Assembly (NCBI GenBank): GCA_019638615.1
Contig: JAHBTL010000023.1
Coordinates: 1-64,000 of the forward strand
DNA length: 64,000 nt
Reading direction: 5' to 3'
Source of the DNA: Chitinophagaceae bacterium
GTDB lineage: Bacteria > Bacteroidota > Bacteroidia > Chitinophagales > Chitinophagaceae
Shown: piece after piece, positions 28,720 through 49,041 of the stretch
Numbering within the stretch: position 1 is the stretch's first letter
How the letters are laid out: each line of letters opens with the position of its first letter
Translations under genes and position numbers: made by a program
The notes under the pieces: model-generated
Told to the model about the DNA's origin: nothing
The model's input: only the letters and a program-made list of their open reading frames with translations
The model's database searches: none

Positions 28720-28796
28720 GCTGGTGGATTTAGCGTGTCCGAAAATACAAAGCATCCACCATATTTGTTCATCCGTCACTACTCAATTCTAGTAGC

Positions 28797-30680
28797 CTAT
28801 TTTCTTTCCCTGGTAATCGGATCCAGGGCATCAAACTGTAACCCGCTTGAGCCTTCGCCCCTGCCCAGCTTTTTGCGGCGTCCGAGCCAGTTAACGGTTT
28901 TTCCGTTATACCAGCGGGTTCGTTGAAAGTTGCTTGTCACCCTTGCCCCCGCGCGCGGCACTTCTTCTTCATTTACAAACATGGGCGATGTAACTGCGTC
29001 TGTTTCGTTTATACCTGTACGTAATAAACTGGTAGCCGGGCGAACGGGCGCGTATTCCTTCTTAAACCAACGGGGCATGCTGGCGCGCTGCAGCCTCACA
29101 GCCCTGTACTGTCCCGGTATATGAACGGGCACAAAAGGGATCCAGTTTTCGGGCACTGTATTTTCAATCATATATTTGAACATCGCTTTTTCATCCACCG
29201 GTAACAAGGTGCCTGCAGGTGGTTCAATCAGCTCAATGGCATTGCGAAGATAATTGGCTGCGGCATCGCCTGCCATATTAATGCCTGCCAGGCTGTTCAT
29301 TCTTGTTTCAATGGCCCATACCATATTCGCCATTTCATCGCGTATAAAATGTATTTCTTCCAACGGCTCGCTTTCCTGCGTCTTAGCTACACAGGGTGGC
29401 AGGAACAAACGTGTATCCGCCGGTGCATTTTTCATATTATCTGCCGTCCGTACACTCAGGTTGAACAGTCCCCAGGCTGTCCAATCGTCTGTATTGCCCT
29501 GTATAGCAGGTTTAACCAGTGAACGTTCTCCAAAAACATCCGTTATTACGATGGCTGGTATTTGCGTAAGGCTTCCTACCGGCAATGAATAGGGTACCAC
29601 CAGCCAGTCGTTGCCATAAATAAGCGCGTATTCCGATACGATCAATTTTGCAATGTCCGTTGTGTCTGCATCTATATCGCCCAGGTCTATATTACCGTCT
29701 TCAAACTGCCACCACCGGGGATGCGGCATGCCGCCATATTTTGCAAGGGTAGGTATTACCGTTACTATTTTCTCATCCACTTTGGGCAGCTCATCGTCAG
29801 TGGCATTTCCAGTCAGTCCCTCTATCGTTTCACCATCTGCCGACACATCAAACGAATACCATTCCATATCGCCGGTATAATATTCTTCCGCTTTCAATAC
29901 GGTATTAGGCTTTTCTTTTTCGGGCAATGCTACCGCAAACTGGTATTCCATTTGTTCGTTCAGCCAGGCGCCTTTGCCATTGGTATTGTGTTGCGGCTTG
30001 TATGTTTTTTCAAACCATTGCACATAGGCTTCCAGCGCCTGCTTCAGCGCATCTGTATGCCCCGGGTCAACCAATGCAATGGCAGTTGCAGCAGCCGGCA
30101 ACCCGGCTTTTGCAGCGTTGTACAACAACGCTCCGTCAAACCACTGCGTTCCATTAGCCGCTAAAAAACTGTTTAGCGGATTATTAACAAGAGTACGCAA
30201 CTTCAGCACCGTGTTTATATGGTTGTCATTCGTATCAACACTTTCAGGTAATACCAGCGCATACAATGTTCTCAGCTTTTGCAGGTAACCGGCATAATCA
30301 AAACCCGCTGCGCCGGTTAATTTATTTTTCAGCAGTTTCATGAAAAAAGAAGCAGATTGAACGCGGCAATGATAATCCAGCCGGGGATGTTCGCTCTCCA
30401 CCTTCGTTTCGGCCGGTATAACATCCGTATATACTTCACCGCTTTCCGTTGCTGATTTATACCTTGTGATCTGCGTGCTTTGCATTTTTATTTTTGCAAA
30501 AATCGCAGAGCCGGTATCTTCGCCCTGGAACTCGCCAAACTGCCATTGCCGCGTAAGCATCCATAGCGGGTCGTGTATCGCACATTTCAGAACATCATCA
30601 AAATCCTGTTTGCGTGTTCGCGGCTCCAGCCTGTTCCAGGCGCGGAATGGTTCACATGAAACACTGTCTATTCTTGGCAT
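28797..30680 (-). CDS. hypothetical protein of a conserved 'DPLW..RQWQ..EFQGED' family, 627 aa
   Basis: No function is recognised. The start at 30680 gives a short N-terminus followed by 'DPLWMLTRQWQFGEFQGED' at residues 37-55, a stretch I recognise from uncharacterised proteins of other phyla. There is no signal peptide, membrane segment or catalytic motif. The C-terminus is basic, with 'NFQRTRWYNGKTVNWLGRRKK'. It is the last of eight close-packed genes and starts 10 bases after the 2180-residue protein ends. The pair is probably translated together and may interact. Confidence 0.88.
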   Translation of the reverse strand: MPRIDSVSCEPFRAWNRLEPRTRKQDFDDVLKCAIHDPLWMLTRQWQFGEFQGEDTGSAIFAKIKMQSTQITRYKSATESGEVYTDVIPAETKVESEHPRLDYHCRVQSASFFMKLLKNKLTGAAGFDYAGYLQKLRTLYALVLPESVDTNDNHINTVLKLRTLVNNPLNSFLAANGTQWFDGALLYNAAKAGLPAAATAIALVDPGHTDALKQALEAYVQWFEKTYKPQHNTNGKGAWLNEQMEYQFAVALPEKEKPNTVLKAEEYYTGDMEWYSFDVSADGETIEGLTGNATDDELPKVDEKIVTVIPTLAKYGGMPHPRWWQFEDGNIDLGDIDADTTDIAKLIVSEYALIYGNDWLVVPYSLPVGSLTQIPAIVITDVFGERSLVKPAIQGNTDDWTAWGLFNLSVRTADNMKNAPADTRLFLPPCVAKTQESEPLEEIHFIRDEMANMVWAIETRMNSLAGINMAGDAAANYLRNAIELIEPPAGTLLPVDEKAMFKYMIENTVPENWIPFVPVHIPGQYRAVRLQRASMPRWFKKEYAPVRPATSLLRTGINETDAVTSPMFVNEEEVPRAGARVTSNFQRTRWYNGKTVNWLGRRKKLGRGEGSSGLQFDALDPITRERK

Positions 30681-30690
30681 ATTATTATGG

Positions 30691-33600
30691 TTATGGCTGT
30701 GGTTGTATTGGTTCTATTGGTGAAATGGTTATTTTCCGGGGTTGCCTGTTAAAAGAAAAGTCCATTACCACCTGCACACCCAGCGGGTTGGAATCGTTGA
30801 TATCACCCATTTGGGGTGGCGCTACTTCCGATAAAATGCCTGGCAGTATATGCGACAATGCGCTCTGGTCTACATGATCAGGCTCTACCGCCCTGTTCTT
30901 CGCCATCTCCAGTGTATCAAGCAATGCAAACACAATATCTTCCCACTCCCACTTACCGGTTACCACGGGCGTAACCGCCAGCAATAACGACTGGGGCGGC
31001 ATAGCATTGGGCTGGTTGTAATGAAAGCTGATACCTGTAGTCTCTATTTTATTCGGTATGATCTCCATCCATTCATCTAAAATAATGCCTGCCTGGTCCT
31101 GCACTCCGGAGTTGACCCATTGCTGCGGATTGACCATGACCAGCGAAAGCTTATCGCCTGTTGGCATATAGGTTTCCGGGAACTCTGTGCCCAGCCAGTA
31201 ATCATCCTCCTCATAATTCAATTGTACGGGCAACAGATCAATGCCCCGATCATTCGCCGTCAGTACCATATCCAGCATTTCAAGCGAACCCATTTTGGGG
31301 CGTACCTTTGCCACACTTTGCAACCATTCCGCCATTACCATAGCCCGGCCACTTCGAATAATATTCTTTTCATCCGGAGCAGTTACTTGTTTTGAAATAT
31401 CTCCCTGGTTCGGCGCCTGGTACAAAGGCAGTGATACAAATGCTTTTCCGAAAACTATTTTCAATACATCATTGTAAAAAGACAGCTTTTGTTTGGTGGA
31501 TGTTTTAGCATTGATCTTATTCAATGTATCTGTTGCCTGCTTCAGGCGTTCTTTCGTTTGCTTAAAGGCAATCATGGTTTGCTGCACGTATTTCTGCGAC
31601 GCTTCTTTTTTATCCGCAGCCTGCTCATGCAACAAAGCCGGAACGGCATTGGGAACGCCATACGTATTGACCGAAACCAAAAAGTGCTGCATGAGCTGCA
31701 GTTGAGCATCACTTAACATATCATCCGGCGCTTCCAGTATTTTTTTTGCCTCCAGCAGGTCTTTTATGGTTACATCTGCTGTTAAAGCATTTACTGCAGC
31801 AGCAAGCTGTGTTACGGCCTCCTCTGTTCTTGTTTTGTATTGGGTCTCATCGTGATTGCCGGGATTGTCAGGATCAGGAGCAGCGCTGGTTTGTACCAGT
31901 TGCTCTGCGCCTGCGGCCCGTGCCTGTAACAAAATATTTCTCAATTGCATAAGCAGATGCTCCTGTTCGTAAAAACTACGAACAGAAGCACTCCAGGTTT
32001 CAAGCCGTGATTGCAGGTCAACCGTAATGGCAGCATTGTTCGGCAATGAAAGTTTTTCGCGCAGTTTGTAAGCGATGTATTGTTTAAAATCCGCCTCGTT
32101 GGCTGCTGCAAAAAGATAATCGAGGGGCTGCAGGTTCAGCTCGTTCAGCGATAATTCACTGGTTTGTATCACCGCATCCGGATCATTCGCTTTATGCTCT
32201 GCAATACACCTGATGCTTGCCGGGTTGCCTATAACAGTCGCCAGCCAGGTATTCAGCACGGGTTCCGCTTTTGCCCTGGGCGACGCATCTGCCGTCCAAC
32301 CCGGAGGTTGCGTAAATGTTTTTTGCGACTGAAAGTTCAGCACTACCCGTTGTGTTACCACGGTGCCGGAGCGTGGTGTATCTACCATTTGCGGTTCAGG
32401 GATATTTTTTCCCTGGGCAAGACTGTTCATCATTGCCGAAGCTCTTACATAGTTGCCCTGCACCACCTGGTATACGCTTTCAGAAACCGCCACATCACCC
32501 AACGCGTCCAGCGCGTCAGCCATACGATCAATTTCTTTCGCTATCTGTACAAATTCCGTGTTGCCCCCACCGTTACCGGTTACAAGGTCGTGCAGCCATT
32601 GTAGTACGGTATTGTTGGCAGGATCGGTAAGTACTTCAAACATGGTTCTATCGGAAGGAAAATCCAGCCATTTTATCACATCATAAATCTTGTTGAGCAA
32701 TGCCATACCGTCTACTACATTGCTGTTATAAGTAGGCGGTTTGCCCTCCTGCGCATTGTCTTTTACAGGCACTACCAGCGGAAAGGCGTTCCTGAAGGGA
32801 AGAATGAATTTATCCAGCTCGGCCAGCTTGTATCTTTCATGCAAGCCTTTTTCAAACTGGAAACCCAATATGGCTCCTATCTGTAAACCATTCTGCACGC
32901 CATCAATCAGGTTCATCGCCATCCTTACACGCGATGAAGAAATATTTACCGCCAGCCTGTTGCTGATGTCCTCTTCGGAGTAATTGGCTTTGTATGCGCT
33001 TCTCAGCACCGCGGCTGTAATGGCATGGTTCAGCGAAGGCGCGTGAATAAAGCCGTCATTATCCGGGTCATCGTATACTTTCACGCCTTCAGGGCTTAAT
33101 CCTGCAGGTAAATCGGCAGCCTTCGCCTCCTGCTTGTTGGTATCCCTCCTCAAATCTTCCAGCCAGCCATAAGCGCCGAGATAAATACCTTCCTTGCTGA
33201 CTACACGCTGCTCGCTCAGCCGCCTGTTTACCAGCCCGGTCAGCCATGCATCCAGCCGGTAGCTGCATACATCTATATGTTCTGACAACAAGTACGATAG
33301 CTCTTCGGTGGGCAGGTTGTTTAATATGCCATAGGCCTTGCGTACATCTTCAGTTTTCTGTAATATCTTTTTGTGCTGGGCAGCATTTACATAGCCATTC
33401 AGTAATGGATTTGATTGTGGCTTGTATATATAAGTAGCCATTGAGCTCCTGCCGCTGCCACTGTTGTTACTGGTGCTTACTACATAATTATAAAATGCAT
33501 TGCCGTTATCGAACTTATCGAATACAAACCCCTTTAGCTCGTCTATATCTTTTAACAACAAATGCCATTTGGTGTTGTATTTCCGAAGGGAGCCCATGCC

Positions 33601-36600
33601 TCCCCACTCACTATAGGTACTTTCATCACCTACTATGCGTCGTTTGTCCTCGGTGATCAGCCCTTCCAGTTGCAAAATATCCAATGCAGCTTCCTGGTAT
33701 GCCTGCATCAGCGCTTGCCTCATCATTAAAAACAGCAGGCTGCGGCTGGGGAAACTGGCGGGATTATTCCCCGCCAAAATCGTATCCATGAAACTGTTCA
33801 GCAACCAATCAATGTACGATCCTCCTTCCCCTCTCTCAACAGGATCAACGGGCGATAATTCTTTGCCATCGATCAGAAACCCTGTAAGCTGCTTTAACTC
33901 TTTAATGCCGGCAATGAACCGGTTCCGGAATATCCTGCTTTGCTCAAACTGGTCTCTTATACGGGAATATTTACTGTCTGTAAGCCTGAACAACACATTA
34001 AAGAGATCAGGTATTGTTTCATCCGGGAAACTAAAGGAAGGTGCAAACACGCCTTTGATCATCATTTCCTTGAACCAGGCGCGCATGTATTCTGCACCGT
34101 GTGTAGCCCTTATATCATACTCAGTGCTGCCGGAGCCTGTATATACGCCTTTGCGTGTAATATTGATACCGTAGCGATAATAGTGTTCCACAGAACCAGC
34201 GTTCAGTCCAAGCATTTCAATGAACTTTTGCTGCGGATTGCCGTTTTCCAGTTGTGCGTAATGCGCTACTTTATTTTTCCGGAGCTCTGTCCAAACACCA
34301 TTGAACATCTTTAATATTTCATGCAGCCGCAAATCATACCGGAGCTGCTTCGCTACTTCGGCATTCGAGCTTGTTATTTCCGGCAAATGATAGGCATCGT
34401 ATTGCGCAGACAACTTAAGACGTGAATACGCTGTAACAGGCAGGATACCATAAGGCTGCGCACCTACGCGTATGGAAGGCAGTATGCCCCGCGCGGGACA
34501 GTTATTGATAAAATATTTTTCAGTACGCCTGATGTTGTCATAAGTAAAAATATGATCCCACATTTCTTCCATTGTATGCCCCAGCGTGGCATGCCACAAA
34601 GCCCTGTTCATGGTAATAGCGTTGCTGACCTGCGTATTCAGCCGGTTGTTTACTTTTTGCAGTACAGCGGCAGACAAACCCAGTCCATCAGCCAGGCGTT
34701 TACCATCTGTTTGAACCATCGGATCGGCTGCAGATACATCGAACAACCGGTTGGCTATTTCAATATCAAAACGTTCGTCTTCGTCATTGTCCCGCGCGCT
34801 GTAGCCCGCTGTTGCGTTTTCCGTATTATTGGTAGGTGTTCCCACTTTTAAAATACCCATGCCGTCGGCAGCGTACACATGGTTAAGCAACAGCTTTTCA
34901 AGCAATGTTTTATTGTTAATAGCATCTCCCTGTTTTACACCAACCACCAGCAACTTGTCAAATCCGGTATCGTACTGTTCCTTTGTAAGCGGCAGGGTTA
35001 CCCCCATACCGGTTTCAACGGCCCTCCTGTATTCCGTCATCCACTTCATACCATCTTCGATCTCCAGGTCGCCGTTTTCGTTTATTTTATAAACAGGCTC
35101 TCCGTTCTCATCTTTATTCGAAAAAAAGGCCGGGTCGGGGCCTAGTTGCAGATTATCCGGTACTTTATTGCCCACTACAATGTGCTGAAAGCGATTATTG
35201 GTAATGGTAATAACCGCGAACCGTTCGGGCAATACATAAGTATGCGGTGCTTTTGTCCATACATTTTCTTTTATTTCAGGATCCGTATAATCAAATGCCG
35301 GCTGGGGCAGCTCATTTACCAACTGGTCAACGGACTTGCGCTCAATGGCATTGATCGTTTCAACCAGCTTACTGAAATGATCCGTAACCAGCTTAAAAGC
35401 GGCCAGCTTATCGGCAAACTGTACTTGTTGTGCCGGGGTAATCGACGTGGTCTTGGAGATGATGGACTGTATATCACCCTGGGCCCGCACTACCTGCACT
35501 TCCAGTTCCTGCATCATAATATCGGGCGCAGCGGTAACAGGTTGTAAAAGGGAAGTGAGCTTATTAATTCGTGTATCCAGCACCGTTATGGCATTCAGTA
35601 TCACAGATGTCCAGAAACGGTCGGGATCCAGCGTAGGATTAAGTGATTGAGATGCCGGTGGAATACTTTTGGCGGCTTCCTGTATATCCGCAAAAAAAGC
35701 ATAAGGCTTTTGCTGTAATTGTTGCGCGTTACGCGCTATACCTGATTTACGCGGATCGATCAGCGAAGCGATCCATGAAGCTCTTTTGGTACCGTGGGTA
35801 GTGCATAGTCTTTTCCAGGCCGCTTTTTCCAGGGTCTCATCATTGCTTGCCATCCACCAGGCGCTCCAGAAACGTTTGCCCGATTCATATTCTTTTTGGG
35901 TCAGTCCTTCTTCATGCGTATGTACAAAAATATCATCTGGATAAATCCGCACCCACAGCTCATGTACTTTTTTTAATGCAGGCTCCAACACCGTTTTGGC
36001 TTTGTCGATTACTGCCGCAGCATCACTGCTGATGTATTTCGACAAAGCATCAATGCCGTATCGCTGGCTCCTGTTTTTTGCATTGATACCACTCAGGCTT
36101 TGGCCTACTTTGCTCAACTCAGGCATCAACAGGTTATATACTTTGTCTAAACGTTGTGCCTGGCTGGCGCCTTTTAATGGGATGGCAGAAACAGACCTGT
36201 CAATATATCCTATGCCTGATTTTACCCTGGCTTTAAACTTTGATACTGTTGCATAAGGAGCCGCCGGCTCTACTGAAAATTTTTTAAGATGAAGATAGGT
36301 CTTCATTGCCTGCAGCAACAAGTCGTTGTAATCGTATGGGGGCGGCTCAGGCAAAGCCTTTATTGCCGGCAACGATACCGTTTCAAATTCTTTGATACCG
36401 CTTTCTATATCCGCTACCAACGGTGCGGCTTTTTCCGCAACAAATACGGCCCAGGTTGCATCGGCATGGATCACCAACAGGTTGGGCAACACTGCAACAA
36501 TTCCCCTGCTTACCTGGGTATGCAACTGCTGTAGCTGCGTAAACTGGTTTTTAGCAATATATTGCATACCGGCAACGGCTGCCGCCTGGCTTTTATAAAA

Positions 36601-37233
36601 TGTAAGCACCTGGTCCAGTCCATTTTCTATATACCCGAAGAGGTCCTTTTTATTCTTGATGTTTTGATAAGGGGTTTTAGCACGGTTCGAAAGCACGTCT
36701 ATCGTACCGGCTACTTTATGCAACTGCTCCAGCAGGTTGCGGGCCGGCATCAGCACCCCATGCGGGTCTACTATCAAAGCTTCAATAGCAGCCACCAACC
36801 CGCTTACAGCATTTTTTAACGCCGTAAAATTTATTGCCGGGAACTGCTGCGATACAAAATTCACGGTGTCTGTAAGACTAGCGCCCATTTCTTTCAAAAT
36901 GCGCTTGTTCTTTGCCGTGAGCAGGGTGATCTCACTTACCATTTTACCGGCATCCTGAATGTTTTTTATTGATTTACCGATCGCGCCGCCCGCCTGCGAT
37001 GCGCCCTGTACATCCAGCAGGTCAACCTGCACCAGCAGCAACAGATCCAGTATGGTATCAATATTATCGGTAGACGTTGTTTGCGAGGGCTCATCCAGTT
37101 CCATGAACCGGGTTTCGGTACGTACAGGCAGCAGCAAAATAGGGATGCCGTCATTCTTGGTGGCGGTCATGTTCTTTATTTCACTGATCCTTTTATCTTC
37201 CAGCAGCGCGTTTAACGTAGAAGGCATATACAT
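30691..37233 (-). CDS. giant hypothetical protein, 2180 aa
   Basis: The most likely start is the ATG at 37233, eight bases after the upstream stop codon; a TTG at 37236 would add one residue. The first ~420 residues are helical and low in motifs. Conserved-looking stretches include 'LWVRIYPDDIFVHTHEEGLT' near residue 430 and 'IRVGAQPYGILPVTA' near 920. The final third is rich in Gln/Asn and helices and ends in a proline-rich tail (IEPIQPQP). There is no signal peptide, membrane span or known catalytic motif. Its size and position between two other large proteins suggest a structural or scaffolding part of a complex. I do not recognise a named family. Confidence 0.9.
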   Translation of the reverse strand: MYMPSTLNALLEDKRISEIKNMTATKNDGIPILLLPVRTETRFMELDEPSQTTSTDNIDTILDLLLLVQVDLLDVQGASQAGGAIGKSIKNIQDAGKMVSEITLLTAKNKRILKEMGASLTDTVNFVSQQFPAINFTALKNAVSGLVAAIEALIVDPHGVLMPARNLLEQLHKVAGTIDVLSNRAKTPYQNIKNKKDLFGYIENGLDQVLTFYKSQAAAVAGMQYIAKNQFTQLQQLHTQVSRGIVAVLPNLLVIHADATWAVFVAEKAAPLVADIESGIKEFETVSLPAIKALPEPPPYDYNDLLLQAMKTYLHLKKFSVEPAAPYATVSKFKARVKSGIGYIDRSVSAIPLKGASQAQRLDKVYNLLMPELSKVGQSLSGINAKNRSQRYGIDALSKYISSDAAAVIDKAKTVLEPALKKVHELWVRIYPDDIFVHTHEEGLTQKEYESGKRFWSAWWMASNDETLEKAAWKRLCTTHGTKRASWIASLIDPRKSGIARNAQQLQQKPYAFFADIQEAAKSIPPASQSLNPTLDPDRFWTSVILNAITVLDTRINKLTSLLQPVTAAPDIMMQELEVQVVRAQGDIQSIISKTTSITPAQQVQFADKLAAFKLVTDHFSKLVETINAIERKSVDQLVNELPQPAFDYTDPEIKENVWTKAPHTYVLPERFAVITITNNRFQHIVVGNKVPDNLQLGPDPAFFSNKDENGEPVYKINENGDLEIEDGMKWMTEYRRAVETGMGVTLPLTKEQYDTGFDKLLVVGVKQGDAINNKTLLEKLLLNHVYAADGMGILKVGTPTNNTENATAGYSARDNDEDERFDIEIANRLFDVSAADPMVQTDGKRLADGLGLSAAVLQKVNNRLNTQVSNAITMNRALWHATLGHTMEEMWDHIFTYDNIRRTEKYFINNCPARGILPSIRVGAQPYGILPVTAYSRLKLSAQYDAYHLPEITSSNAEVAKQLRYDLRLHEILKMFNGVWTELRKNKVAHYAQLENGNPQQKFIEMLGLNAGSVEHYYRYGINITRKGVYTGSGSTEYDIRATHGAEYMRAWFKEMMIKGVFAPSFSFPDETIPDLFNVLFRLTDSKYSRIRDQFEQSRIFRNRFIAGIKELKQLTGFLIDGKELSPVDPVERGEGGSYIDWLLNSFMDTILAGNNPASFPSRSLLFLMMRQALMQAYQEAALDILQLEGLITEDKRRIVGDESTYSEWGGMGSLRKYNTKWHLLLKDIDELKGFVFDKFDNGNAFYNYVVSTSNNSGSGRSSMATYIYKPQSNPLLNGYVNAAQHKKILQKTEDVRKAYGILNNLPTEELSYLLSEHIDVCSYRLDAWLTGLVNRRLSEQRVVSKEGIYLGAYGWLEDLRRDTNKQEAKAADLPAGLSPEGVKVYDDPDNDGFIHAPSLNHAITAAVLRSAYKANYSEEDISNRLAVNISSSRVRMAMNLIDGVQNGLQIGAILGFQFEKGLHERYKLAELDKFILPFRNAFPLVVPVKDNAQEGKPPTYNSNVVDGMALLNKIYDVIKWLDFPSDRTMFEVLTDPANNTVLQWLHDLVTGNGGGNTEFVQIAKEIDRMADALDALGDVAVSESVYQVVQGNYVRASAMMNSLAQGKNIPEPQMVDTPRSGTVVTQRVVLNFQSQKTFTQPPGWTADASPRAKAEPVLNTWLATVIGNPASIRCIAEHKANDPDAVIQTSELSLNELNLQPLDYLFAAANEADFKQYIAYKLREKLSLPNNAAITVDLQSRLETWSASVRSFYEQEHLLMQLRNILLQARAAGAEQLVQTSAAPDPDNPGNHDETQYKTRTEEAVTQLAAAVNALTADVTIKDLLEAKKILEAPDDMLSDAQLQLMQHFLVSVNTYGVPNAVPALLHEQAADKKEASQKYVQQTMIAFKQTKERLKQATDTLNKINAKTSTKQKLSFYNDVLKIVFGKAFVSLPLYQAPNQGDISKQVTAPDEKNIIRSGRAMVMAEWLQSVAKVRPKMGSLEMLDMVLTANDRGIDLLPVQLNYEEDDYWLGTEFPETYMPTGDKLSLVMVNPQQWVNSGVQDQAGIILDEWMEIIPNKIETTGISFHYNQPNAMPPQSLLLAVTPVVTGKWEWEDIVFALLDTLEMAKNRAVEPDHVDQSALSHILPGILSEVAPPQMGDINDSNPLGVQVVMDFSFNRQPRKITISPIEPIQPQP

Positions 37234-37240
37234 CAAAAAT

Positions 37241-40516: not shown

Positions 40517-40567
40517 ATTAATTCATTTAATACAATTTGTGATGTAGTGTTTCTCCCGCCGGCTATG

Positions 40568-43500
40568 TTATTCCATTTCCATGTGATATGCCGGCACCAC
40601 TTTTATTTTTCCTTTCATTTCCGGATTAGCTCTTACATAATCGTTCAATGCGTCTGTAGCATCTGAATAGCTGCCGCCGGAAAATCCATTGTGGGCTACC
40701 GCATCCATACTCGCCTTGTTCATTATTACAAACGCTTCTTCATTTACATTCACCGCAGCACCTTTCTGCATCACTTTTTTATTCGCATACTCGCGCGACA
40801 GTGAAGAGTTACCTATTGCCCCGCCTTTGGTCATCAGCTTAAATATGTTTTTATCGAATGTAAACAACGGAGTTTCCGGTGTTGGATCGAAATCCGAAAC
40901 ATGCACTTCATATTCCACTTTCCGGTTCGCTCTTGACAACACAGTGATCTCATCTGTTTCCGTTACCTTCACCCCGCTCTTCATATTTTCGTAAGACGGC
41001 GCGCTCAGCTTTTGCTTATTATCCAGCTTTTTGAACATAGCCGGTGCAAACGCTTCTACAGGATATTCATTAGATACGATGCTGTTACCGATCTTAACCC
41101 GGGCAATGTCTATCTTTTTGATATCCGCCGGGATGTTTTCGCCGAATTTATCAAGCACCTGCCCTACCGGTACTACTGTTTGACTTACCCTGAAGGAACC
41201 GAAGGGTTGTAATACGATGCTGCCCGGCTCAGAAGGAATATCGCGAACACCTACCAGCGTAGAACGATTGGCCGGCAACTCCGTGGTCCAGTTCGCATCC
41301 AGTTGCAGGGCTTCCATCGCTTTGGGCAGTACCGCGATCTTCGGATATTCAATGCTGCTCTTATCGCCCCATTCTTCATCAAAATGTACTTTAATGGTAA
41401 AGAACAAAATGCTGAACGAAGCCGTGCCTTTGGCGTTCCATGGAGTGGGGCCTGCGAGCTCAAACTCAAGATTAATACCAAAGAGCGTGCAATCACCGAT
41501 CTTTACTTCCAACCCTGCGCCAACGCCTACAATAAAACGGAAGGGCGAGAACTGGAACAATGCGTCAAAGTAGAGATAACCCACTACCTTAAACTCAGAA
41601 ACGGCAAACCGGAAATCTATTTTAGCGCCGAACTGCACGGTGTTGGAGGTTACGGCAAAATAACAGGTAAGTATCAGCCTGGGATTGTCTGCCAGTATGG
41701 TGAGCGTAAGCCGCTTCATGGAAGGTACTTTCAGCTCAGACGGTGGTTTGAACTGCGGATGGAAGCCTCCTACAGATAATAAAAATCCTTTTGTTTGTCC
41801 CCAGCCCAGGCGCAGGGCCATATCGCCTTCGAGGGTAAACGTGAGTATGCGCGAATTGTAGAGGCTGGCATCGAAAGACAACATGCCTTTTTCAAAATCA
41901 ATGATGCCCACAAAATTTACCTGCAGTTGCAGGATGGCTGCCTCTTCGGTAGGCAATGCAATTTTCACCACCCCTAAAATGGCAATACGGGTAGGACTGG
42001 CAAACTCAATGATCAAGCCAAAATCGATGGTGATCAATGCAGGTACGCCCCAGGTAATTCTCGCCATCAGGCCGATAATGAACTGATCTTTCTTGGGCGG
42101 GAAGATGGTGCTGATCTGCTGAATGATGGTTGTGATATTGGCAACCACATCTTCTGGGAACATAATGTGGTCGATGGCGTTGTTCTTTACCCCCTCGCGC
42201 ATCGCGTCTACATTAATGGTGCGGTTGATGCCCAGCATACCGCCGAGTCCGCTCAGGAAAAAGCCCATGCTCAGCGATATACCCGGACTGAATGTAACGC
42301 TGATGATGATCAACAAAGAAAAGCCGTCACTGCCGTCAGGCATGCGCGTCGTAATAACACAAATAGCCGCCACCTGGAAGCTGTCCACAATAGAAAGCTC
42401 CAGCGCGCCGGCGTATTGTTTGTTCACATCATCGAACAAAATATAACCACCACCTTTTACCACACCCGCGTCAATGCTCAACCCGATACCCGTAGGAGGT
42501 TTAAAAGCAAATTCCAGGTTTGCAGGCCCTATATTGCCTTGCTTAAACTGCAATTCGGTACGCAACCCGATATTTTCAACCACCGCTACAATAGGCCCTA
42601 ATGATAGCTTAAGATTAGCACCTGCATCCAGATTGAATTTTTCGGTAGCGGGAGTAAGCGCTATGCGCATGCCATTGATGGCCACCGGGCCCAATTCAAT
42701 ATGCACAGGAAGGTCAATAGCGAACTGTGCGCCGCCACTGATGCTGAAGCCATGCAGCAGACTGAATTTAAAAGCAACATTGGAGTCTATCTGTATATTA
42801 ACGCCCGACAGCATTTTCTGCAAGAAGCCATCGCCATCGCCCCCGCTGATCACCAGGCGGATGACCTGTATCTCTCCTTCCATCCCGAGGTCTACTTTTC
42901 CACCGGAATTACCAACAAACCATTTCACACCCAATCCTTTTAATGCAAAACGGGTACCGTTGCGCGATCCAACCAAAATGATCTCATCTATTTTATCAGC
43001 CTTTTCCCTGATAGCAATGGAAGCATTATAGTTAGAAGTGAAATTGAGGATACCTTCCGCGTTGAAGGGCGGGCGTATTACAAAACCCACTCCTTTAATA
43101 TCTGCCGAAGATTGAAATACCAGTTCACCCCGGTCGCATACATTGAACTGGAATTCCGCTGCCCCCATTATGTATGGCAGCAAAGCAACTCCCTTTTTCT
43201 TTCCTCCCTGCGCATCAGCCGGAGAAAAAGTAACACCAAACTGTGCATAAGTTTCAGGAGTAAACCCTTTCTGGAAGAAAGGAAAACGCAACTCCTTCTG
43301 ACCGGCGGTGGTATTTCCCAAAATGGTGCGGGTGGTTTCAGCCTGGGGGTACAATCCACCCGGCAATGAGGCGGCTTTCATCAGCCGCTCAAGCCTGAAA
43401 AGAAATTTGCCGGCGTCAAAATTGCTATCCCACTGGTAAACATCATTAAACAACTGCCGTGGATTAGAGAACATCAACCCAAGCCTGTTCCAGTTAACCA

Positions 43501-43972
43501 GGCGCATAGGTTGCCCCGCCGGAGCCTCCGGCTCGAACTCTGTTAACCCCAGTAAAAACAATGCATCATGCAATTGTGGCTTTTGATGCTCGAAATAATC
43601 CAGTATCAGGAAATCAGTAAGCCTTCTTGGGAAATCATTAATACCCGGTATACCTGCCCCTCCGCCGGATTTGATCTGGTTATGCAGCGTTACGATAGCA
43701 TTCACCAGCGTACCAAAACGAGTTCCCACCGCTGCAAGCGCGGCAATCACTTCCATATCGCCTTCCGCATCTACCAGGGTACGTACCGCATTTACCAGTT
43801 GTGTTCCTTCGGTAGCCACGCCCGATAATGCAGACCCCACGGCGCTTGCGGGTATATCATATCCTAACTTTTTAAACAGGTCAGCCGCTTTTTGCGGCGT
43901 ATTTACCGACCGTAAAGGCGACAATGCAAGCCCCGCTTCGGTTAATACTGATTGTAGTGCATCCTGTGGCAT
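40568..43972 (-). CDS. large beta-rich protein, DUF6603-like, 1134 aa
   Basis: A short helical N-terminus (about 1-110) is followed by a very long run of alternating, Gly-rich amphipathic strands with few Cys. Near residue 840, 'GPTPWNAKGTASFSILFF' followed by 'HFDEEWG' matches my memory of the DUF6603 family. The strand pattern would suit a beta-barrel, beta-solenoid or tube-like fold. There is no signal peptide, so it is not an ordinary outer-membrane protein. The C-terminal 150 residues look globular. It sits between the MCKTT-tagged genes and the other giant proteins, 50 bases from each. Family assignment is from memory and unverified. Confidence 0.82.
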   Translation of the reverse strand: MPQDALQSVLTEAGLALSPLRSVNTPQKAADLFKKLGYDIPASAVGSALSGVATEGTQLVNAVRTLVDAEGDMEVIAALAAVGTRFGTLVNAIVTLHNQIKSGGGAGIPGINDFPRRLTDFLILDYFEHQKPQLHDALFLLGLTEFEPEAPAGQPMRLVNWNRLGLMFSNPRQLFNDVYQWDSNFDAGKFLFRLERLMKAASLPGGLYPQAETTRTILGNTTAGQKELRFPFFQKGFTPETYAQFGVTFSPADAQGGKKKGVALLPYIMGAAEFQFNVCDRGELVFQSSADIKGVGFVIRPPFNAEGILNFTSNYNASIAIREKADKIDEIILVGSRNGTRFALKGLGVKWFVGNSGGKVDLGMEGEIQVIRLVISGGDGDGFLQKMLSGVNIQIDSNVAFKFSLLHGFSISGGAQFAIDLPVHIELGPVAINGMRIALTPATEKFNLDAGANLKLSLGPIVAVVENIGLRTELQFKQGNIGPANLEFAFKPPTGIGLSIDAGVVKGGGYILFDDVNKQYAGALELSIVDSFQVAAICVITTRMPDGSDGFSLLIIISVTFSPGISLSMGFFLSGLGGMLGINRTINVDAMREGVKNNAIDHIMFPEDVVANITTIIQQISTIFPPKKDQFIIGLMARITWGVPALITIDFGLIIEFASPTRIAILGVVKIALPTEEAAILQLQVNFVGIIDFEKGMLSFDASLYNSRILTFTLEGDMALRLGWGQTKGFLLSVGGFHPQFKPPSELKVPSMKRLTLTILADNPRLILTCYFAVTSNTVQFGAKIDFRFAVSEFKVVGYLYFDALFQFSPFRFIVGVGAGLEVKIGDCTLFGINLEFELAGPTPWNAKGTASFSILFFTIKVHFDEEWGDKSSIEYPKIAVLPKAMEALQLDANWTTELPANRSTLVGVRDIPSEPGSIVLQPFGSFRVSQTVVPVGQVLDKFGENIPADIKKIDIARVKIGNSIVSNEYPVEAFAPAMFKKLDNKQKLSAPSYENMKSGVKVTETDEITVLSRANRKVEYEVHVSDFDPTPETPLFTFDKNIFKLMTKGGAIGNSSLSREYANKKVMQKGAAVNVNEEAFVIMNKASMDAVAHNGFSGGSYSDATDALNDYVRANPEMKGKIKVVPAYHMEME

Positions 43973-44022
43973 ATAATGTGTTTACTATAAATTCAATTCA
44001 TTGCTTTTTATATAAAAAGATT

Positions 44023-46011
44023 TTACGGGCTGAATGTTAACCGGTCTCCATACCTGTCTGAAGGACATATTGCCAGTTCCGTCAAAACATGATCATCCTG
44101 CAGCATGGGTACCCGGCGCGACTGCGCAGTACCTATAGCAGCGCCTGTACTCTGGTTAGCAGCGCCCGAAGGCAATGTTTCCGCCCATATACATTTGTAC
44201 CACGACTGCATTGCTGCATTGTCGTGCGGTTGTAATACCATTAAACCGTTGCGGCTGATCGCGTTCCTGTTGAAAAAGAAAACAGGCAATCCTGCAAACA
44301 GCATATAGTAGTACAAACCATCACCCGTTTGCAAACTATCCTGTGCCGCCTGCATAAAATTTTTTACAGGGGTCAATTGTGTTGCCAGGTGATCCAGCAA
44401 TTGTTGCTGATACTGTTGAATGATGGCAATCGTTAACGGATTAGGAGCTGTTGCAGGCACAATGTTTTGCGACAACGCTGTGTTGATCTGCTGCAGGCTT
44501 GTAAAAAGAGATTGAAGCGTGGCGGCAACAGGTGTTGCAAAAAGCGTTTGACTGTAAGACGTAGCGGAGCTCACTATAGAAGCGACTCCTGTTAGTTGCG
44601 TAGCCGAAGGCACTGATGCTGCAGGCACATTGAAATAATTGGTAAGATTTGTTATCACTGCTGCAAAAGCCAGCCCGGATAATGAAGCCAGTCCGGGTGT
44701 TGGAATGAACAATGCAGGTATGCGGGTGCGCCATGTAAGATCGCAAAAACGCAACGCATGCCCGCTTAAAAGATCTGTCCAGAAAGCGGTGTGAAGCGGT
44801 TCTACTTTAATCAATCCGGCCCACGACAGCACCGCGCTTCGCTGCTCGGCCGGCGGTACAGCATTCGCAAAAATACTCCTGGTAAGATAGGCTGCTATAT
44901 CGGCGCGATTCCTTGGTCGCTCCCAGCCTAACGGGGGGTATGACTGGAACCATATGGGCGCAGAAGCACGGAGTCGTGGATTCTGCGGCCTGTCAAAAAA
45001 TTCACGTAATGCCACCAGGTAATCACTGTCATCTCCTGCACGACAACCCCTGATATCTATTGTGCTTGTTACGGCAAAACGCTGTCTTGCCCGGTTAAGA
45101 TTTGCCCTGAAATCTGCGGCAACCGCCCTTGCAGCATTATCAAGCGTAGGATAATAGTTCATATTATCCGGTACATAATCGGATAATGTATATTGAAATG
45201 TGTCTACATTTAAATTGGTTATGCCCAGGTGCGTGATGGCTTCCCTTAAGGTATTTACCTGTGTGGCTGTAACGCTGCCGCTTACCAGGCCCTTACCCAT
45301 TTCGGTAAGGATAGCCCCTTTAAATCTTGTGCAGATAGTGCGCTGCGCAGGTGTGATGGCCGATCCGTTCCGGCTTCTTACTCTCCCTGCTGTTCCGATG
45401 AATACATGGTTAAAACATTCTTCAAAAAATGACCTGAGCGTACCCGATGGAGTTCCTGACGTTTGCAATCCGAAAGGATTGAGCGCATTGGCATATTGGG
45501 CATTGGCGCTTATGAATGTTCTCAGGTTGCCCATAATGGTTGAAAAAACAGAGCTCCAGTTAAAAACCGGGGGATCGAAAGGATCCAGGTATTTTAATCC
45601 GTCCAGGTCACTTTTCGCAAATTCCCTGAATACTTCCTTATTGGTTCCGTTTACGCCGCCCGTAAAAAAAGGCATAATAACGCCACGGGGATGCGCGTGC
45701 GAAACCAACAGCATTCGCTGATACGTGGTAGTAACAGCAGGATCGGCCAACAGTTGTAACAAGTGTTCTATGGAGTTTACATCGCGTGGCTGCAGTCCGA
45801 AATAACCGTAAAACTGCCGTGCGCTTTGCAAAAAACCGGCGGTTCCCGCAGTTGATATAAAAGTTACATCGGGAACATGCTCCTGGAATCCGTCAAACTG
45901 GTTGGCGGGCGGAGCGGGAGTTGGAGGCGTAACCACTCCACCGGTATTGGGCTGAATCCCAATTATTTGTGAACCTGCCGCGGCTTGTGTTCCTTTTGTT
46001 GTTTTACACAT
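44023..46011 (-). CDS. MCKTT-tagged protein with caspase-like His/Cys pattern, 662 aa
   Basis: It begins MCKTT, as do the next two upstream genes, followed by a low-complexity Gly/Pro/Thr linker to about residue 38. 'MLLVSHAHPRGVIMPFF' (His105/His107) and 'STIDIRGCRAGDD' (Cys323) each follow a hydrophobic strand. That is the order and setting of the catalytic dyad in clan CD peptidases (caspase, CHAT, DUF4347-like). A long segment lies between the two motifs, so the assignment is tentative. The C-terminal half is mostly Thr/Ala-rich helix and strand of unknown type. No signal peptide is present. Confidence 0.8.
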   Translation of the reverse strand: MCKTTKGTQAAAGSQIIGIQPNTGGVVTPPTPAPPANQFDGFQEHVPDVTFISTAGTAGFLQSARQFYGYFGLQPRDVNSIEHLLQLLADPAVTTTYQRMLLVSHAHPRGVIMPFFTGGVNGTNKEVFREFAKSDLDGLKYLDPFDPPVFNWSSVFSTIMGNLRTFISANAQYANALNPFGLQTSGTPSGTLRSFFEECFNHVFIGTAGRVRSRNGSAITPAQRTICTRFKGAILTEMGKGLVSGSVTATQVNTLREAITHLGITNLNVDTFQYTLSDYVPDNMNYYPTLDNAARAVAADFRANLNRARQRFAVTSTIDIRGCRAGDDSDYLVALREFFDRPQNPRLRASAPIWFQSYPPLGWERPRNRADIAAYLTRSIFANAVPPAEQRSAVLSWAGLIKVEPLHTAFWTDLLSGHALRFCDLTWRTRIPALFIPTPGLASLSGLAFAAVITNLTNYFNVPAASVPSATQLTGVASIVSSATSYSQTLFATPVAATLQSLFTSLQQINTALSQNIVPATAPNPLTIAIIQQYQQQLLDHLATQLTPVKNFMQAAQDSLQTGDGLYYYMLFAGLPVFFFNRNAISRNGLMVLQPHDNAAMQSWYKCIWAETLPSGAANQSTGAAIGTAQSRRVPMLQDDHVLTELAICPSDRYGDRLTFSP

Positions 46012-46024
46012 ATACTACGTTCAT

Positions 46025-46804
46025 TCAGGGCGATAATATTTTTAACGTATCTCTTATAATATCAATCTGGGCAACAGAAAACTGTGTTGTGCCGGGTTGA
46101 TACGTCTCGTTCATAACTGTGCCACTATGATGAGTCAAAGAAAACATATGTCCCAGCTCATGCTCTACAACGCTTTTAAACTTGTCTGCCCCCGAGCTCC
46201 ATCCCGTGATATTCTTAAGTACCGCGTCTGCTTTTATAATTCCCAGTTTCCTGCAGAATTTTCCCAGGTAATAATTGCCTGCAAAACCAAATCCTAAAAC
46301 ATTCTCAGCGCTCCAATCTTCTTCTATACCCTTATATACATCCCGTGTAGGAACGAGGGTCTGAGCAGAAGGGTCATCCTCTATTTTCCTAAGCCATATA
46401 TAAGAAGCTACCTGGTGTTTCTCCATTAAACGCTGTATCTCGTCTGCAGAAGTACTATTCGCCGACAATCCGGGAGTATTAAAAACATAGAAAGGGAAAT
46501 CCATCCTACCCATTCTCTGGATTTCATCACCTGCAGGACTGAAAGATTTATAGGTGACTTCAAAAGTATATAGCGCTAAATCGTTTGACAGATCCGGAGA
46601 TAACCCGGGCATATCTTTCAAACTATTATAAAAATTCTGAACTCCCATCAACGCAGCCTTTAAATCATTTCTGCCATCAATTATTTTTTTGGGATCATAG
46701 ATTGCTACTTTCACTTTCTTACCTGCTACCTCCTCGGCGCATTGAGGAAAGATTCTTCGTACCCTGTCTGCCGAAGCTGTATTATTAGTTGTTGTTTTAC
46801 ACAT
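46025..46804 (-). CDS. MCKTT-tagged metzincin-like metalloprotease, 259 aa
   Basis: The zinc site HELGHMFSLTH (His215, Glu216, His219, His225) has the HExxHxxxxxH spacing of metzincins. A Met-turn candidate follows in 'SGTVMNE' (Met231). The usual Gly at position 8 of the motif is Ser here. The protein starts with MCKTT and a short Thr/Asn linker; there is no signal peptide or propeptide of the normal kind. The middle part (about 28-110) would form the upper subdomain. The gene is 13 bases from each tagged neighbour. A peptidase acting on an unknown protein target is likely. Confidence 0.85.
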   Translation of the reverse strand: MCKTTTNNTASADRVRRIFPQCAEEVAGKKVKVAIYDPKKIIDGRNDLKAALMGVQNFYNSLKDMPGLSPDLSNDLALYTFEVTYKSFSPAGDEIQRMGRMDFPFYVFNTPGLSANSTSADEIQRLMEKHQVASYIWLRKIEDDPSAQTLVPTRDVYKGIEEDWSAENVLGFGFAGNYYLGKFCRKLGIIKADAVLKNITGWSSGADKFKSVVEHELGHMFSLTHHSGTVMNETYQPGTTQFSVAQIDIIRDTLKILSP

Positions 46805-46817
46805 ATCATTTTCTGTT

Positions 46818-48026
46818 TCACGGATGACCTGCAGCTACTACATTGGCCAATGCCACAGCCAGGTCTTTTAATCTTTGTTTGGATGGCGCCCTGGAACACC
46901 CGATCGCATATCTCAACATTCCGGCATCCGTATCTTCTGACAAATAAGCGGCTTCACTGAAATTAGCTCCGAACACGCCTACTTTGGCAAAACACTGGGT
47001 GATCACTCTTCCCTTCTTCTCCAATTCATCTCTTATCCAGCTTGTATTATACTCTTTGTCCCATAGCTCGTCTGCCACTATCCGGTCCATTACCATCAAC
47101 ATTTCCTGCGATGTTTCGGCATCTGCCAGCTTTCGTTTTATCAGCAGCGCCATAAACCTGGCAAGCACTTCGGCATTTCCGCCTTGAGTAGTGATCTTTT
47201 GCGGATTGTTGTTTTTAAAATCATTTTCAAAGGACGTTCCCGCATAGTTACCGCTTAGCCATAGCCCGCCTATAGTTGTTGAGTTCTCGTCGAAAAAGCC
47301 GGCTGCCGACATGCAACCATTCACAAACTGAAAACCGAGCGCATTGATGCAGGAACCTGCCGCATTATTGTCTGACCAGCCGATCATCAGCTCCAGGCGG
47401 TCTCTGAAACCAAGCCCATTGATAACGTTCAACGACTTTCCGTGTTGATCCGCTACGTTGAGCAACGACTCTCCCCTGGCGGGCTCCGAGTAGTCAAAGT
47501 CAGATGTAAAATCTATCTCCCATTCACCATTTCCTTTTTTTGTTGCATTGAAAATTGTATGCAGGTCGGGCGGCCAGGCATGTCCCGAAAATTTCCCGGG
47601 ATATTTCTGCGCAGCACCTACCCAGCTTATCTTCAACCCGTCGAACAAAGCATTTTTATCCGTAGCATTTACTCCTTTTGCATTTTCACGAACGGTTTTC
47701 CGCAGCCAGAAAGCTGCAAACAATACCGCAATTTTGGCAGTACTGGCAATGAAGGTGTGCTTTGTATCATTATGCCCCAAATAAACAGGAGCCGATCCGG
47801 TAACATCAAGCAGGGCAAAACGGAGATCCTTGAATTTTGCATTTGCCTTAACTGTATTAAATGTACCTGTCATTATCTGCGACGGTACACCATTTATTAC
47901 AAAAGTTTGTACCGGTGGAAATAACCCGGGAGGGGGCTGCGAAGGAGCCGGTTGCTTCTGAATTTGTATCAGCTCTTTTTCGCCCGGCGATGCGGTTTGT
48001 GTTGCCCTGTTGGTTGTTTTGCACAT
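46818..48026 (-). CDS. MCKTT-tagged serine hydrolase (beta-lactamase/PBP-like), 402 aa
   Basis: After MCKTT and a Pro/Gln-rich linker (to about residue 40), the sequence shows the penicilloyl-serine transferase pattern. STAK at 95-98 is S-x-x-K with the nucleophile Ser95. SDN lies at 218-220 ('GWSDNNAAGSC'), and a late 'KVG' stands where KTG is usual. Members act as beta-lactamases, D,D-peptidases or esterases. Class A-type enzymes are normally exported, but no signal peptide is present here. The target may be peptidoglycan or an ester; this cannot be decided from sequence. Confidence 0.82.
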   Translation of the reverse strand: MCKTTNRATQTASPGEKELIQIQKQPAPSQPPPGLFPPVQTFVINGVPSQIMTGTFNTVKANAKFKDLRFALLDVTGSAPVYLGHNDTKHTFIASTAKIAVLFAAFWLRKTVRENAKGVNATDKNALFDGLKISWVGAAQKYPGKFSGHAWPPDLHTIFNATKKGNGEWEIDFTSDFDYSEPARGESLLNVADQHGKSLNVINGLGFRDRLELMIGWSDNNAAGSCINALGFQFVNGCMSAAGFFDENSTTIGGLWLSGNYAGTSFENDFKNNNPQKITTQGGNAEVLARFMALLIKRKLADAETSQEMLMVMDRIVADELWDKEYNTSWIRDELEKKGRVITQCFAKVGVFGANFSEAAYLSEDTDAGMLRYAIGCSRAPSKQRLKDLAVALANVVAAGHP

Positions 48027-48057
48027 AAAGGAATAAAATCAAATCTGAAAAAGGGCA

Positions 48058-49041
48058 TTAAGCCGTTGCTATCGGACCTTCTTTGTAATGCCTGCTGATC
48101 CAGTGCGCTCTTGTTCCATTCATTCCTGCAAGCACATCATTAAAGTTGGCCCCGCCGAAATACCGGTTCCTTAGCTCCTCCAATATCCTTCCGCATTGGC
48201 TAATGTTACTTTTAGGAAAACGAACAAGATTGAACAGATCAATTTTTTTATTATCACCAAGAGCCGCTAAAGCCTCCCGTAACTCCTGGTCTGCTGAGGC
48301 TCTTATGCTGCTTGGCTCAGGTAATTCCGTCCAGGGCAACCCACCCGGTAAAACCATGGCATGCAATGCCAACCGTATCCTGCATACACCGGCACCTTCT
48401 GCAGCCAGGGCTACAAAATCTCCCGCATCTTCATTAAGCGATGCCGCCAGCTCATCTAAGTGCGCCTTTCGTTGTTGTATATTTTGCTGCAATGCCCCCT
48501 CCGACACCATACTGAAAACAAATCTTTTAAAACCATCACCGGTTTCAGGTGTTTGCAGGACTACCTGCTGGTAATAGGGATTGTGGTCATTCACCAATTC
48601 CCTGGCAACATCAAGATTGCCTATGCCCGGCCCCGGAGTTTCAGCGGCTGTTGCGATTAATGCTTCCAGTTCTGCGTTCAATTGCACTATCTCCTGGTTG
48701 AGTGTAATACCGGATTTGACTGAATTGTCTGCTCCTTTCACTTTTACAGCAACAGTTAACGCTCCTGTTGCCTGCGGGATGTAAGTAAATTCCCCAACCG
48801 GGGTTGTTTCGGTAACCACAGGAGTTCCATTTTCACTGAATGTCCATTCATACGATGAAGCGGCATTTGCTGTAGCTGTATCTGTAACAAATACAACATA
48901 GGTATTCTGCCTGTTAATAACGAGGGGTGACCTTATATAAGAAACGATCACTGCATTGTTTTCCTGCGCCTGGGCGCTTTCTCCCAGGTCGTTGGCTGTG
49001 AATCCGTCAGGAAGCCGGCTTTCTGTTTTACGAGCAGGCAT
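48058..49041 (-). CDS. first gene of the giant unit; Ig/PKD-like segment plus unknown domain, 327 aa
   Basis: Residues about 30-115 read like an Ig/PKD fold ('YEWTFSENGTPVV', 'GEFTYIPQATGALTVAVKVKG'). Residues about 145-320 are mostly helical ('KRFVFSMVSEGALQQNIQQRKAHLDELAAS', 'SQCGRILEELRNRYFGG') and match nothing I know. It does not begin with MCKTT, and it has no signal peptide. Its basic N-terminus is 'MPARKTESRLPDG'. The gene opens the eight-gene unit, 31 bases ahead of the first tagged gene. Possible roles are adaptor, chaperone or another passenger; none is shown by the sequence. Confidence 0.85.
   Translation of the reverse strand: MPARKTESRLPDGFTANDLGESAQAQENNAVIVSYIRSPLVINRQNTYVVFVTDTATANAASSYEWTFSENGTPVVTETTPVGEFTYIPQATGALTVAVKVKGADNSVKSGITLNQEIVQLNAELEALIATAAETPGPGIGNLDVARELVNDHNPYYQQVVLQTPETGDGFKRFVFSMVSEGALQQNIQQRKAHLDELAASLNEDAGDFVALAAEGAGVCRIRLALHAMVLPGGLPWTELPEPSSIRASADQELREALAALGDNKKIDLFNLVRFPKSNISQCGRILEELRNRYFGGANFNDVLAGMNGTRAHWISRHYKEGPIATA

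Follow-up and report, generated by a model that had tools for sequence, protein, structure and literature searches.

The DNA analysed here is a 64,000-nucleotide stretch (hereafter the window) of contig JAHBTL010000023.1, from a 7.18-Mb draft genome of a Chitinophagaceae bacterium. It contains a compact unit of eight open reading frames (ORFs), all on the minus strand, running from position 49041 down to 28797 (Table 1). In this order, the genes encode a PKD/Ig-like protein, three enzyme-like proteins, here called cargo, and four large proteins, here called the core (DUF6603, FLP, IYP and RQW). The successive intergenic gaps are 31, 13, 13, 50, 51, 4 and 10 bases; the gap of 4 bases would become about 7 if the ATG following the TTG start of the 2181-residue frame were used. 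A previous analysis based on the letters of the window (the sequence-only reading) had described eight contiguous minus-strand genes with gaps of 7-51 bases and no signal peptides, and both statements were borne out, with measured gaps of 4-51 bases and a best 19-residue hydropathy mean near the start of no more than 0.89. Its statement that no membrane span is present holds generally, except for one interior stretch of the 1134-residue DUF6603 protein (1.83 at residue 553), which is barely above the usual cut-off and falls in a region predicted as beta strands.

Table 1. Genes and N-terminal tags of the unit, in window coordinates.
Feature	Position	Strand	Evidence
PKD/Ig-like protein, candidate adaptor, 327 residues	48058..49041	-	Pfam PKD E 4e-4, below cut-off
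Beta-lactamase-type serine hydrolase (class-A), cargo, 402 residues	46818..48026	-	Pfam Beta-lactamase2 E 7.4e-10
Metzincin-like metalloprotease, cargo, 259 residues	46025..46804	-	Pfam Peptidase_M10 E 4e-4, below cut-off
Caspase-like protein (candidate clan-CD cysteine peptidase), cargo, 662 residues	44023..46011	-	Invariant His + Arg-Gly-Cys
MCKTT N-terminal tag (five codons), beta-lactamase-like cargo	48012..48026	-	
MCKTT N-terminal tag, metzincin-like cargo	46790..46804	-	
MCKTT N-terminal tag, caspase-like cargo	45997..46011	-	
Core 1, DUF6603 protein (D66), 1134 residues	40568..43972	-	Pfam PF20248 E 4.9e-130
Core 2, FLPWLR protein (FLP), 1091 residues	37241..40516	-	Conserved family
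Core 3, IYPDD protein (IYP), 2181 residues	30691..37236	-	Conserved family, 34 rows
Core 4, DPLW..RQWQ protein (RQW), 627 residues	28797..30680	-	Conserved family, 51 rows
Possible ninth gene, metallo-beta-lactamase-fold (MBL-fold), 459 residues from GTG	27400..28779	-	Pfam Lactamase_B E 0.015, weak

The first core protein is a full member of DUF6603 (434.9 bits against a curated cut-off of 27 for PF20248), confirming the DUF6603-like stretch noticed in the sequence-only reading, and the signatures FLPWLR, IYPDD and DPLW..RQWQ, which had been considered conserved-looking, do fall within conserved families. In Pfam, NCBIfam and PHROGs, nothing better than E 0.001 was found for FLP, IYP or RQW: FLP had no Pfam or PHROGs match up to E 1 and a single NCBIfam match at E 0.0046, far below the cut-off, IYP had no Pfam match over the cut-off (best E 0.33), and RQW had no Pfam match up to E 1. 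Comparison with PDB sequences gave nothing better than E 1.4 for FLP, 1.3 for IYP and 0.078 for RQW, and the three families showed no matches to one another in profile comparison.

Fold comparison covered the FLP model (PDB and viral folds) and the DUF6603 model (PDB). In the AlphaFold2 model of the DUF6603 protein (pLDDT 79.0, pTM 0.47), residues 1-220 are predicted to be helical and to be followed by a long antiparallel meander of about 39 strands. Most of the predicted strands have one hydrophobic face, with a mean face difference of 3.22, compared with a mean of 1.56 (standard deviation 0.19, maximum 2.16) in 500 shuffled controls. Among PDB folds, outer-membrane barrels and ushers come nearest, with a low TM-score. 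In L038, an Algoriphagus relative, an array of repeats, whose period is near 64 residues, lengthens DUF6603; Algoriphagus-type DUF6603 proteins (L038-L043, L070, L081, L012; L numbers designate loci) have about 2100-2200 residues, and their loci are without a clear separate cargo gene. For the FLP model (pLDDT 84.9, pTM 0.61), neither PDB nor viral folds gave a match at E 0.001 or better. A hydrophobic stretch in the middle of the protein, mostly a pair near residues 600-650, is present in 29 of 77 FLP frames (all within L045-L101) and in none of the 28 rows on the window's side of the FLP tree.

Relatives of the unit were found with a six-row FLPWLR profile, taking one genome per species, and the best 80 of 390 loci were kept. 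In 69 of the 80 kept loci, profile searches of all reading frames placed the four genes on a single strand in the order DUF6603 - FLP - IYP - RQW. Among the 11 kept loci without a complete core, nine are cut at contig ends; L069 is without a recognisable RQW, and L084 without a recognisable DUF6603 gene. Judging from the record titles, the kept loci come from Bacteroidota, Acidobacteriota, Chloroflexota, Pseudomonadota, Actinomycetota, Cyanobacteriota, Gemmatimonadota, Planctomycetota and Myxococcota. The closest named relative among the loci listed is L023, from a Chitinophagaceae metagenome bin, whose FLP is 92% identical to that of the window. In addition, 13 plasmid records had an FLP match; four of them were read, from two haloarchaea (Salinigranum and Halalkalicoccus) and two Streptomyces, and all four core genes were present in order in each.

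When 395 genomes sampled evenly from the window's phylum were searched, eight yielded both FLP and RQW and the others yielded neither (Fisher p 7e-17), although the searches scored 2-3 first-look candidates per genome, so that misses are possible. DUF6603 exceeded its cut-off in 16 of these genomes, eight with FLP and RQW and eight without both, and in none of 14 control genomes. Whether the genes co-occur in other genomes had been raised in the sequence-only reading as a point on which a single system stands or falls, and it is now clear that they do travel together. The four core genes are one retained genetic unit. The notion that they are unrelated genes and neighbours by chance might be suggested by the fact that three core families and several of the enzymes have no known relatives, so that a link is unreadable from names; however, it is next to impossible to reconcile with a core order and contiguity kept across phyla and haloarchaea and with the shared occurrence of FLP and RQW, and for the four core genes it is refuted.

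In contrast to the fixed core, the enzymes directly upstream are exchanged. Of the 75 loci with a called DUF6603, 58 have a gene on the same strand whose end lies no more than 250 bases before DUF6603, at a median gap of 6.5 bases; in the window, this position is occupied by the caspase-like gene. A Pfam scan (E up to 0.01) covered 63 of the 95 upstream same-strand genes, all 95 of which encode at least 190 residues. The counts, which overlap, were Trypsin_2 10 (many of these matches being below the Pfam cut-off), NAL1_N 8, Nal1_C 7, PhoD 6, M64 5, PLDc_2 4, S8 3, tyrosinase 2, galactose oxidase 1 and Beta-lactamase2 1; the Salinigranum core locus has a PhoD cargo. On a quick maximum-likelihood FLP tree of 76 rows (40 of 73 inner branches starred, 17 open), nine cargo types, assigned by hand from clusters and Pfam results to 53 rows, require at least 23 changes, the least possible being 8; the 23 unlabelled rows were not counted. 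After shuffling of the cargo labels, a mean of 31.2 changes was needed, and none of 200 shuffles needed as few as 23. The FLP proteins of Nitrosomonas ureae (L060) and of a Methylococcales bin (L071) are nearly identical (end branches of 0.05 and 0.03), and the cargo is a tyrosinase in the first and a trypsin in the second. Between the window and L023, identity is 86-94% in the core, 73% in the adaptor, and 42% and 30% in the two shared enzymes.

The cargo of the window supports the presence of three enzyme-like proteins proposed in the sequence-only reading. The serine hydrolase, which has the clearest Pfam match, carries the sequences STAK and SDN, which we take to be beta-lactamase-type motifs. 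The metzincin-like protein, whose match is weak, contains HELGHMFSLTH (HELGHxxxxxH) and a Met-turn-like GTVMN; it has no relative among the loci compared and no counterpart in L023. The caspase-like protein had no Pfam match over the cut-off, and its residues H105, D319, R321, G322 and C323 are invariant in all eight aligned sequences, the window included. A second cargo family, with invariant H60 and C123 (five sequences), shares the RGC block (hhalign E 9.4e-7). Judging from these residues, the two His/Arg-Gly-Cys families may be caspase-like peptidases, the His and the Cys being candidates for the catalytic pair.

Three elements found on or beside the enzymes are candidates for docking to the core. 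The sequence MCKTT begins all three enzymes of the window, and MCKT(T/S) is retained in both enzymes of L023 in spite of divergence elsewhere. MCKTT was considered as a genome-wide tag and rejected: the sole further DNA-pattern match in the window's own genome, presumably within a heavy-metal-associated motif, is not a start, and the tag is therefore confined to the operon in that genome. The PKD-like protein, for which the Ig/PKD-like assignment of the sequence-only reading is a weak one, is encoded by a single-copy gene in the window genome. It is a stand-alone protein in the window and in four of the 80 kept loci (L023, L044, L074, L080); in L025, L098 and L125 it forms the N-terminal part of a fusion with the caspase-like enzyme, and L053 has a weak match.

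The third element is a C-terminal domain of about 100 residues, present in 34 proteins that include trypsin-like enzymes, two subtilisins (L063, L069) and four stand-alone genes. The profile was begun by eye from five segments, including the subtilisin of L069 and the stand-alone gene of L031; the subtilisin of L063 and the three remaining stand-alone genes were recovered by the search and were not seeds. The domain occurs in four of the 395 genomes, three of which have the core (Fisher p 2e-5); up to 12 first-look candidates were scored per genome, so that misses are possible. In the core-less genome (L139, G134) it is found on a 470-residue NAL1-like trypsin (NAL1 by eye). The domain showed no match to IYP in profile comparison, and none of its 34 hits lies in a core protein. 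Recruitment of the enzymes by tags and domains of this kind is likely.

As to where the system acts, hydrophobic N-termini were found in 3 of 56 cargo proteins (a count that omits the upstream genes of L042 and L043, with gaps of 180 and 203), 5 of 296 core proteins and 69 of 232 other neighbouring genes. With respect to type IX secretion, none of the eight genes of the window has a signal-like N-terminus, and no C-terminal sorting domain was found with Pfam and NCBIfam. The enzyme types found in the upstream slot are elsewhere mostly of secreted kinds. The Salinigranum IYP contains a BGTF surface domain (NCBIfam E 1.7e-15), and in the haloarchaeal and Streptomyces plasmid records lamin-tail and VCBS appear on RQW and FLP, as record labels only. 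The surface-type domains, the hydrophobic stretch of FLP and the kinds of enzyme point to an extracellular or membrane role. The unit may comprise nine genes: an MBL-fold gene starts 17 bases after core 4; its N-terminus is signal-like (hydropathy 1.72 at residue 30). No terminator-like site was found between 26700 and 28850, a result of little weight since shuffled sequences yield just 1.8 (standard deviation 1.5).

The reading that we prefer, with a probability of about one half, is that the four core proteins form a carrier that is produced in the cytoplasm, has no export signals and is loaded with exchangeable enzymes. These would be recruited via a short N-terminal tag, a stand-alone or fused PKD-like adaptor, or a C-terminal domain. 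DUF6603 would be a long amphipathic beta scaffold or pore, and FLP, with its hydrophobic middle stretch in one large clade, would provide the membrane contact. In a less confident step, the loaded complex would act outside the producing cell as an enzyme-delivery or enzyme-display assembly, and the enzymes would attack material outside the cell or in a neighbour; for delivery out of the cell the odds appear about even. The fullest version, an inter-domain delivery machine of bacteria and haloarchaea, built of four giant proteins and mechanistically unrelated to the numbered secretion systems and contractile tails, in which interchangeable folded enzymes are docked and then deployed outside, is offered more tentatively, at somewhat less than even odds.

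Several observations weigh against the carrier. The upstream slot is not universal: in 17 of the 75 loci it is empty over the 250 bases considered, although five of these are cut inside DUF6603, six are of the Algoriphagus type, in which the DUF6603 gene is long, and in two (L030 and L036) a trypsin-like gene is found downstream rather than upstream. None of the 200 shuffles gave so few changes, so that inheritance together with the core accounts for part of the distribution of cargo types. Only two loci, which are related, are known to have the MCKTT tag, and in L023 the caspase-like frame could begin earlier (MLAMCKTS); neither the C-terminal domain nor the PKD adaptor extends beyond some of the lineages, and one of the four genomes with the C-terminal domain has no core match. 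The likeness of DUF6603 to beta-barrels is loose (rmsd, root mean square deviation, near 10), the lamin-tail annotation of two RQW proteins from haloarchaea was not confirmed by NCBIfam, and the downstream MBL-fold gene, unlike the other genes of the unit, has an ordinary signal-like start. Finally, the core contains no recognisable ATPase, chaperone, lysis gene or channel, and no export step is visible.

The main rival is an intracellular conflict system, acting in defence or cell death, whose core would sense an invader and unleash a recruited protease, lipase or phosphatase inside the producer. According to PMC7159879, hallmarks of nucleoside triphosphate (NTP)-dependent conflict systems include effectors that are replaced again and again while the operon stays the same, and small domains by which proteases are coupled to the core; trypsin-like and caspase-like enzymes are also named there. 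Effector displacement of that kind is seen here, with the many changes among nine cargo types, and the few signal-like N-termini in core and cargo, as well as the patchy spread (8 of 395 genomes), also speak for such a role. However, no NTPase profile (MoxR, GTPase, STAND) was found in the core proteins, none of the nine genes had a PADLOC match, and the coupling C-terminal domain is on no core protein, contrary to the pattern of effector-associated domains (EADs) set out there. In addition, tyrosinase, galactose oxidase and M64 peptidase would in our judgement be unusual suicide effectors, and core proteins of haloarchaeal and Streptomyces plasmids have surface-type domains or labels. A conflict role is considered unlikely, at rather more than one chance in five.

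Less probable still is a lipid-handling or membrane-bridging scaffold, in which DUF6603 would be a hydrophobic beta groove carrying lipid and the enzymes would be incidental or would modify the envelope. The 39 predicted DUF6603 strands with their marked hydrophobic face would suit such a groove, as would the repeat array of L038, which recalls length-variable groove proteins, and the phospholipase D and PhoD enzymes among the cargo; but the alternating hydrophobicity fits barrels and other beta sheets too, neither the window DUF6603 nor three or four long relatives matched AsmA, TamB or chorein in Pfam, and such a scaffold would not account for the presence of proteases and oxidases among the cargo. 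The sequence-only reading had compared the unit to a structural assembly with passengers, as in phage-tail-like or particle systems. As an architecture this stands, with four core genes in a constant arrangement and enzymes that change in the slot before them; the phage-tail-like or particle part is unsupported. A contractile injection particle diverged beyond recognition is very improbable, even if large structural genes and N-terminally tagged enzymes resemble the loading of extracellular contractile injection systems (eCISs; PMC11495950), and even if the neighbouring M56/TonB-like peptidase gene (25433-26701, outside the unit) has a sub-threshold eCIS_core match (E 0.031), which is probably due to chance. 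As the sequence-only reading had remarked, no tail sheath, tube or baseplate protein is recognisable by profile, nor is there an AAA ATPase, in Pfam and NCBIfam and, for the core, PHROGs. A pattern scan of IMG/VR for FLP, made in view of a possible phage origin of the core, gave 69 pattern matches, none of which was confirmed as a relative; the FLP model had no viral fold match at the threshold given above, and four giant core proteins are unlike the many small ones of such particles.

The eight genomes with DUF6603 and without FLP and RQW contain a second arrangement (type B), of which nine loci (L115-L123) were read. In all nine, DUF6603 has beside it a short FLP-like gene, whose product is related to the N-terminal portion of FLP (E 1.2e-9 and probability 96.4 in a profile-profile comparison, columns 41-285). 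A large protein with an HLHWALPD-like motif, which showed no match to IYP or RQW, is encoded in six of the nine, and a separate gene of about 300 residues in three. Directly upstream of the type-B DUF6603 are MBL-fold genes (L117, L119) and a DUF4135 gene (L115); L119 also has a gene for a protein with an S74 chaperone match and, presumably, a tail-collar-like gene. Type B is a second, distantly related arrangement that has DUF6603 and the N-terminal portion of FLP in common with the window's unit, and DUF6603 together with an FLP-like protein is therefore the deeper kernel of the system.

Some further neighbours of the core deserve mention. A P-loop protein (SelU-like, related to the tRNA 2-selenouridine synthase MnmH) adjoins the core in 22 of the 80 loci, in both orientations; the gene is downstream of the core in L024-L029, L031, L034, L035, L037-L044, L053, L070, L081, L099 and L102. 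Twelve of the 22 frames are short (195-253 residues, two of them cut by the locus end), and four that were tested fall below the MnmH cut-offs. The window genome has an open MnmH-like copy of 220 residues elsewhere (G000:C24:19229-19885; L147 9172-9834), 44% identical to the Dyadobacter one. This gene was considered as a fifth component and not adopted as one, although it may be linked to the core: relatives are present in 84 of 149 class genomes, mostly as frames of MnmH length. Directly upstream of the unit lies an insertion-sequence transposase gene (DDE_Tnp_1 with DUF4372, 49489-50661), and part of a similar gene adjoins another core locus (L124). Composition makes no case for recent transfer, the GC content being 0.41-0.49 in the eight genes and 0.38-0.49 in eight flanking genes. 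Finally, the record MT835531.1 (L135), labelled Bacteriophage sp. and the only phage record with an RQW match, contains FLP, IYP, RQW and the cut end of DUF6603. It was not accepted as a phage, being an unverified scaffold among whose frames no phage gene was seen by eye (no family scan was run), and it is probably a mislabelled bacterial scaffold.

The system is regarded as new because three of the four core families, and the arrangement itself, match nothing in the libraries searched. No publication on DUF6603, PF20248 or IPR046538 (which we take to be the accession of DUF6603), or on such an arrangement, was found in a literature search with subscription journals outside its scope. Undescribed core units so large, so strictly ordered and so widespread are rare, and three large unannotated families are here brought into one testable unit, which also gives DUF6603 a context. 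If the enzymes are indeed passengers, this would be a new microbial way of carrying folded enzymes, and the cargo exchanges would be a natural record of the recognition elements that are needed; if the unit is a conflict system instead, it would be one without a recognisable NTPase.

Among known systems, the NTP-dependent conflict systems with EADs (PMC7159879) are similar in having a conserved core, swapped protease-type effectors and a shared small coupling domain; they differ in their NTPase core and in the coupling domain carried by a core component, neither of which was found here. The repeating beta-groove proteins (AsmA/TamB/VPS13; PMC11014939) are comparable in their very long array of amphipathic strands, varying in length by repeats, but no sequence relation to the DUF6603 protein was found. 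With eCISs such as the Photorhabdus virulence cassette (PMC11495950), the unit shares machine-adjacent enzymes that have no Sec signal and carry short N-terminal loading tags, whereas a sheath, tube, baseplate and loading ATPase were not recognised here by profile, two of the four core proteins having been compared by fold as well. As for families already named, core 1 is a full member of DUF6603, but that family has so far been a name only. The commonest cargo type matches NAL1_N and Nal1_C and so resembles the NAL1-type trypsin-like proteases. The plant NAL1 protein belongs to a different context; the enzymes found here often have an extra C-terminal domain and are placed before the core.

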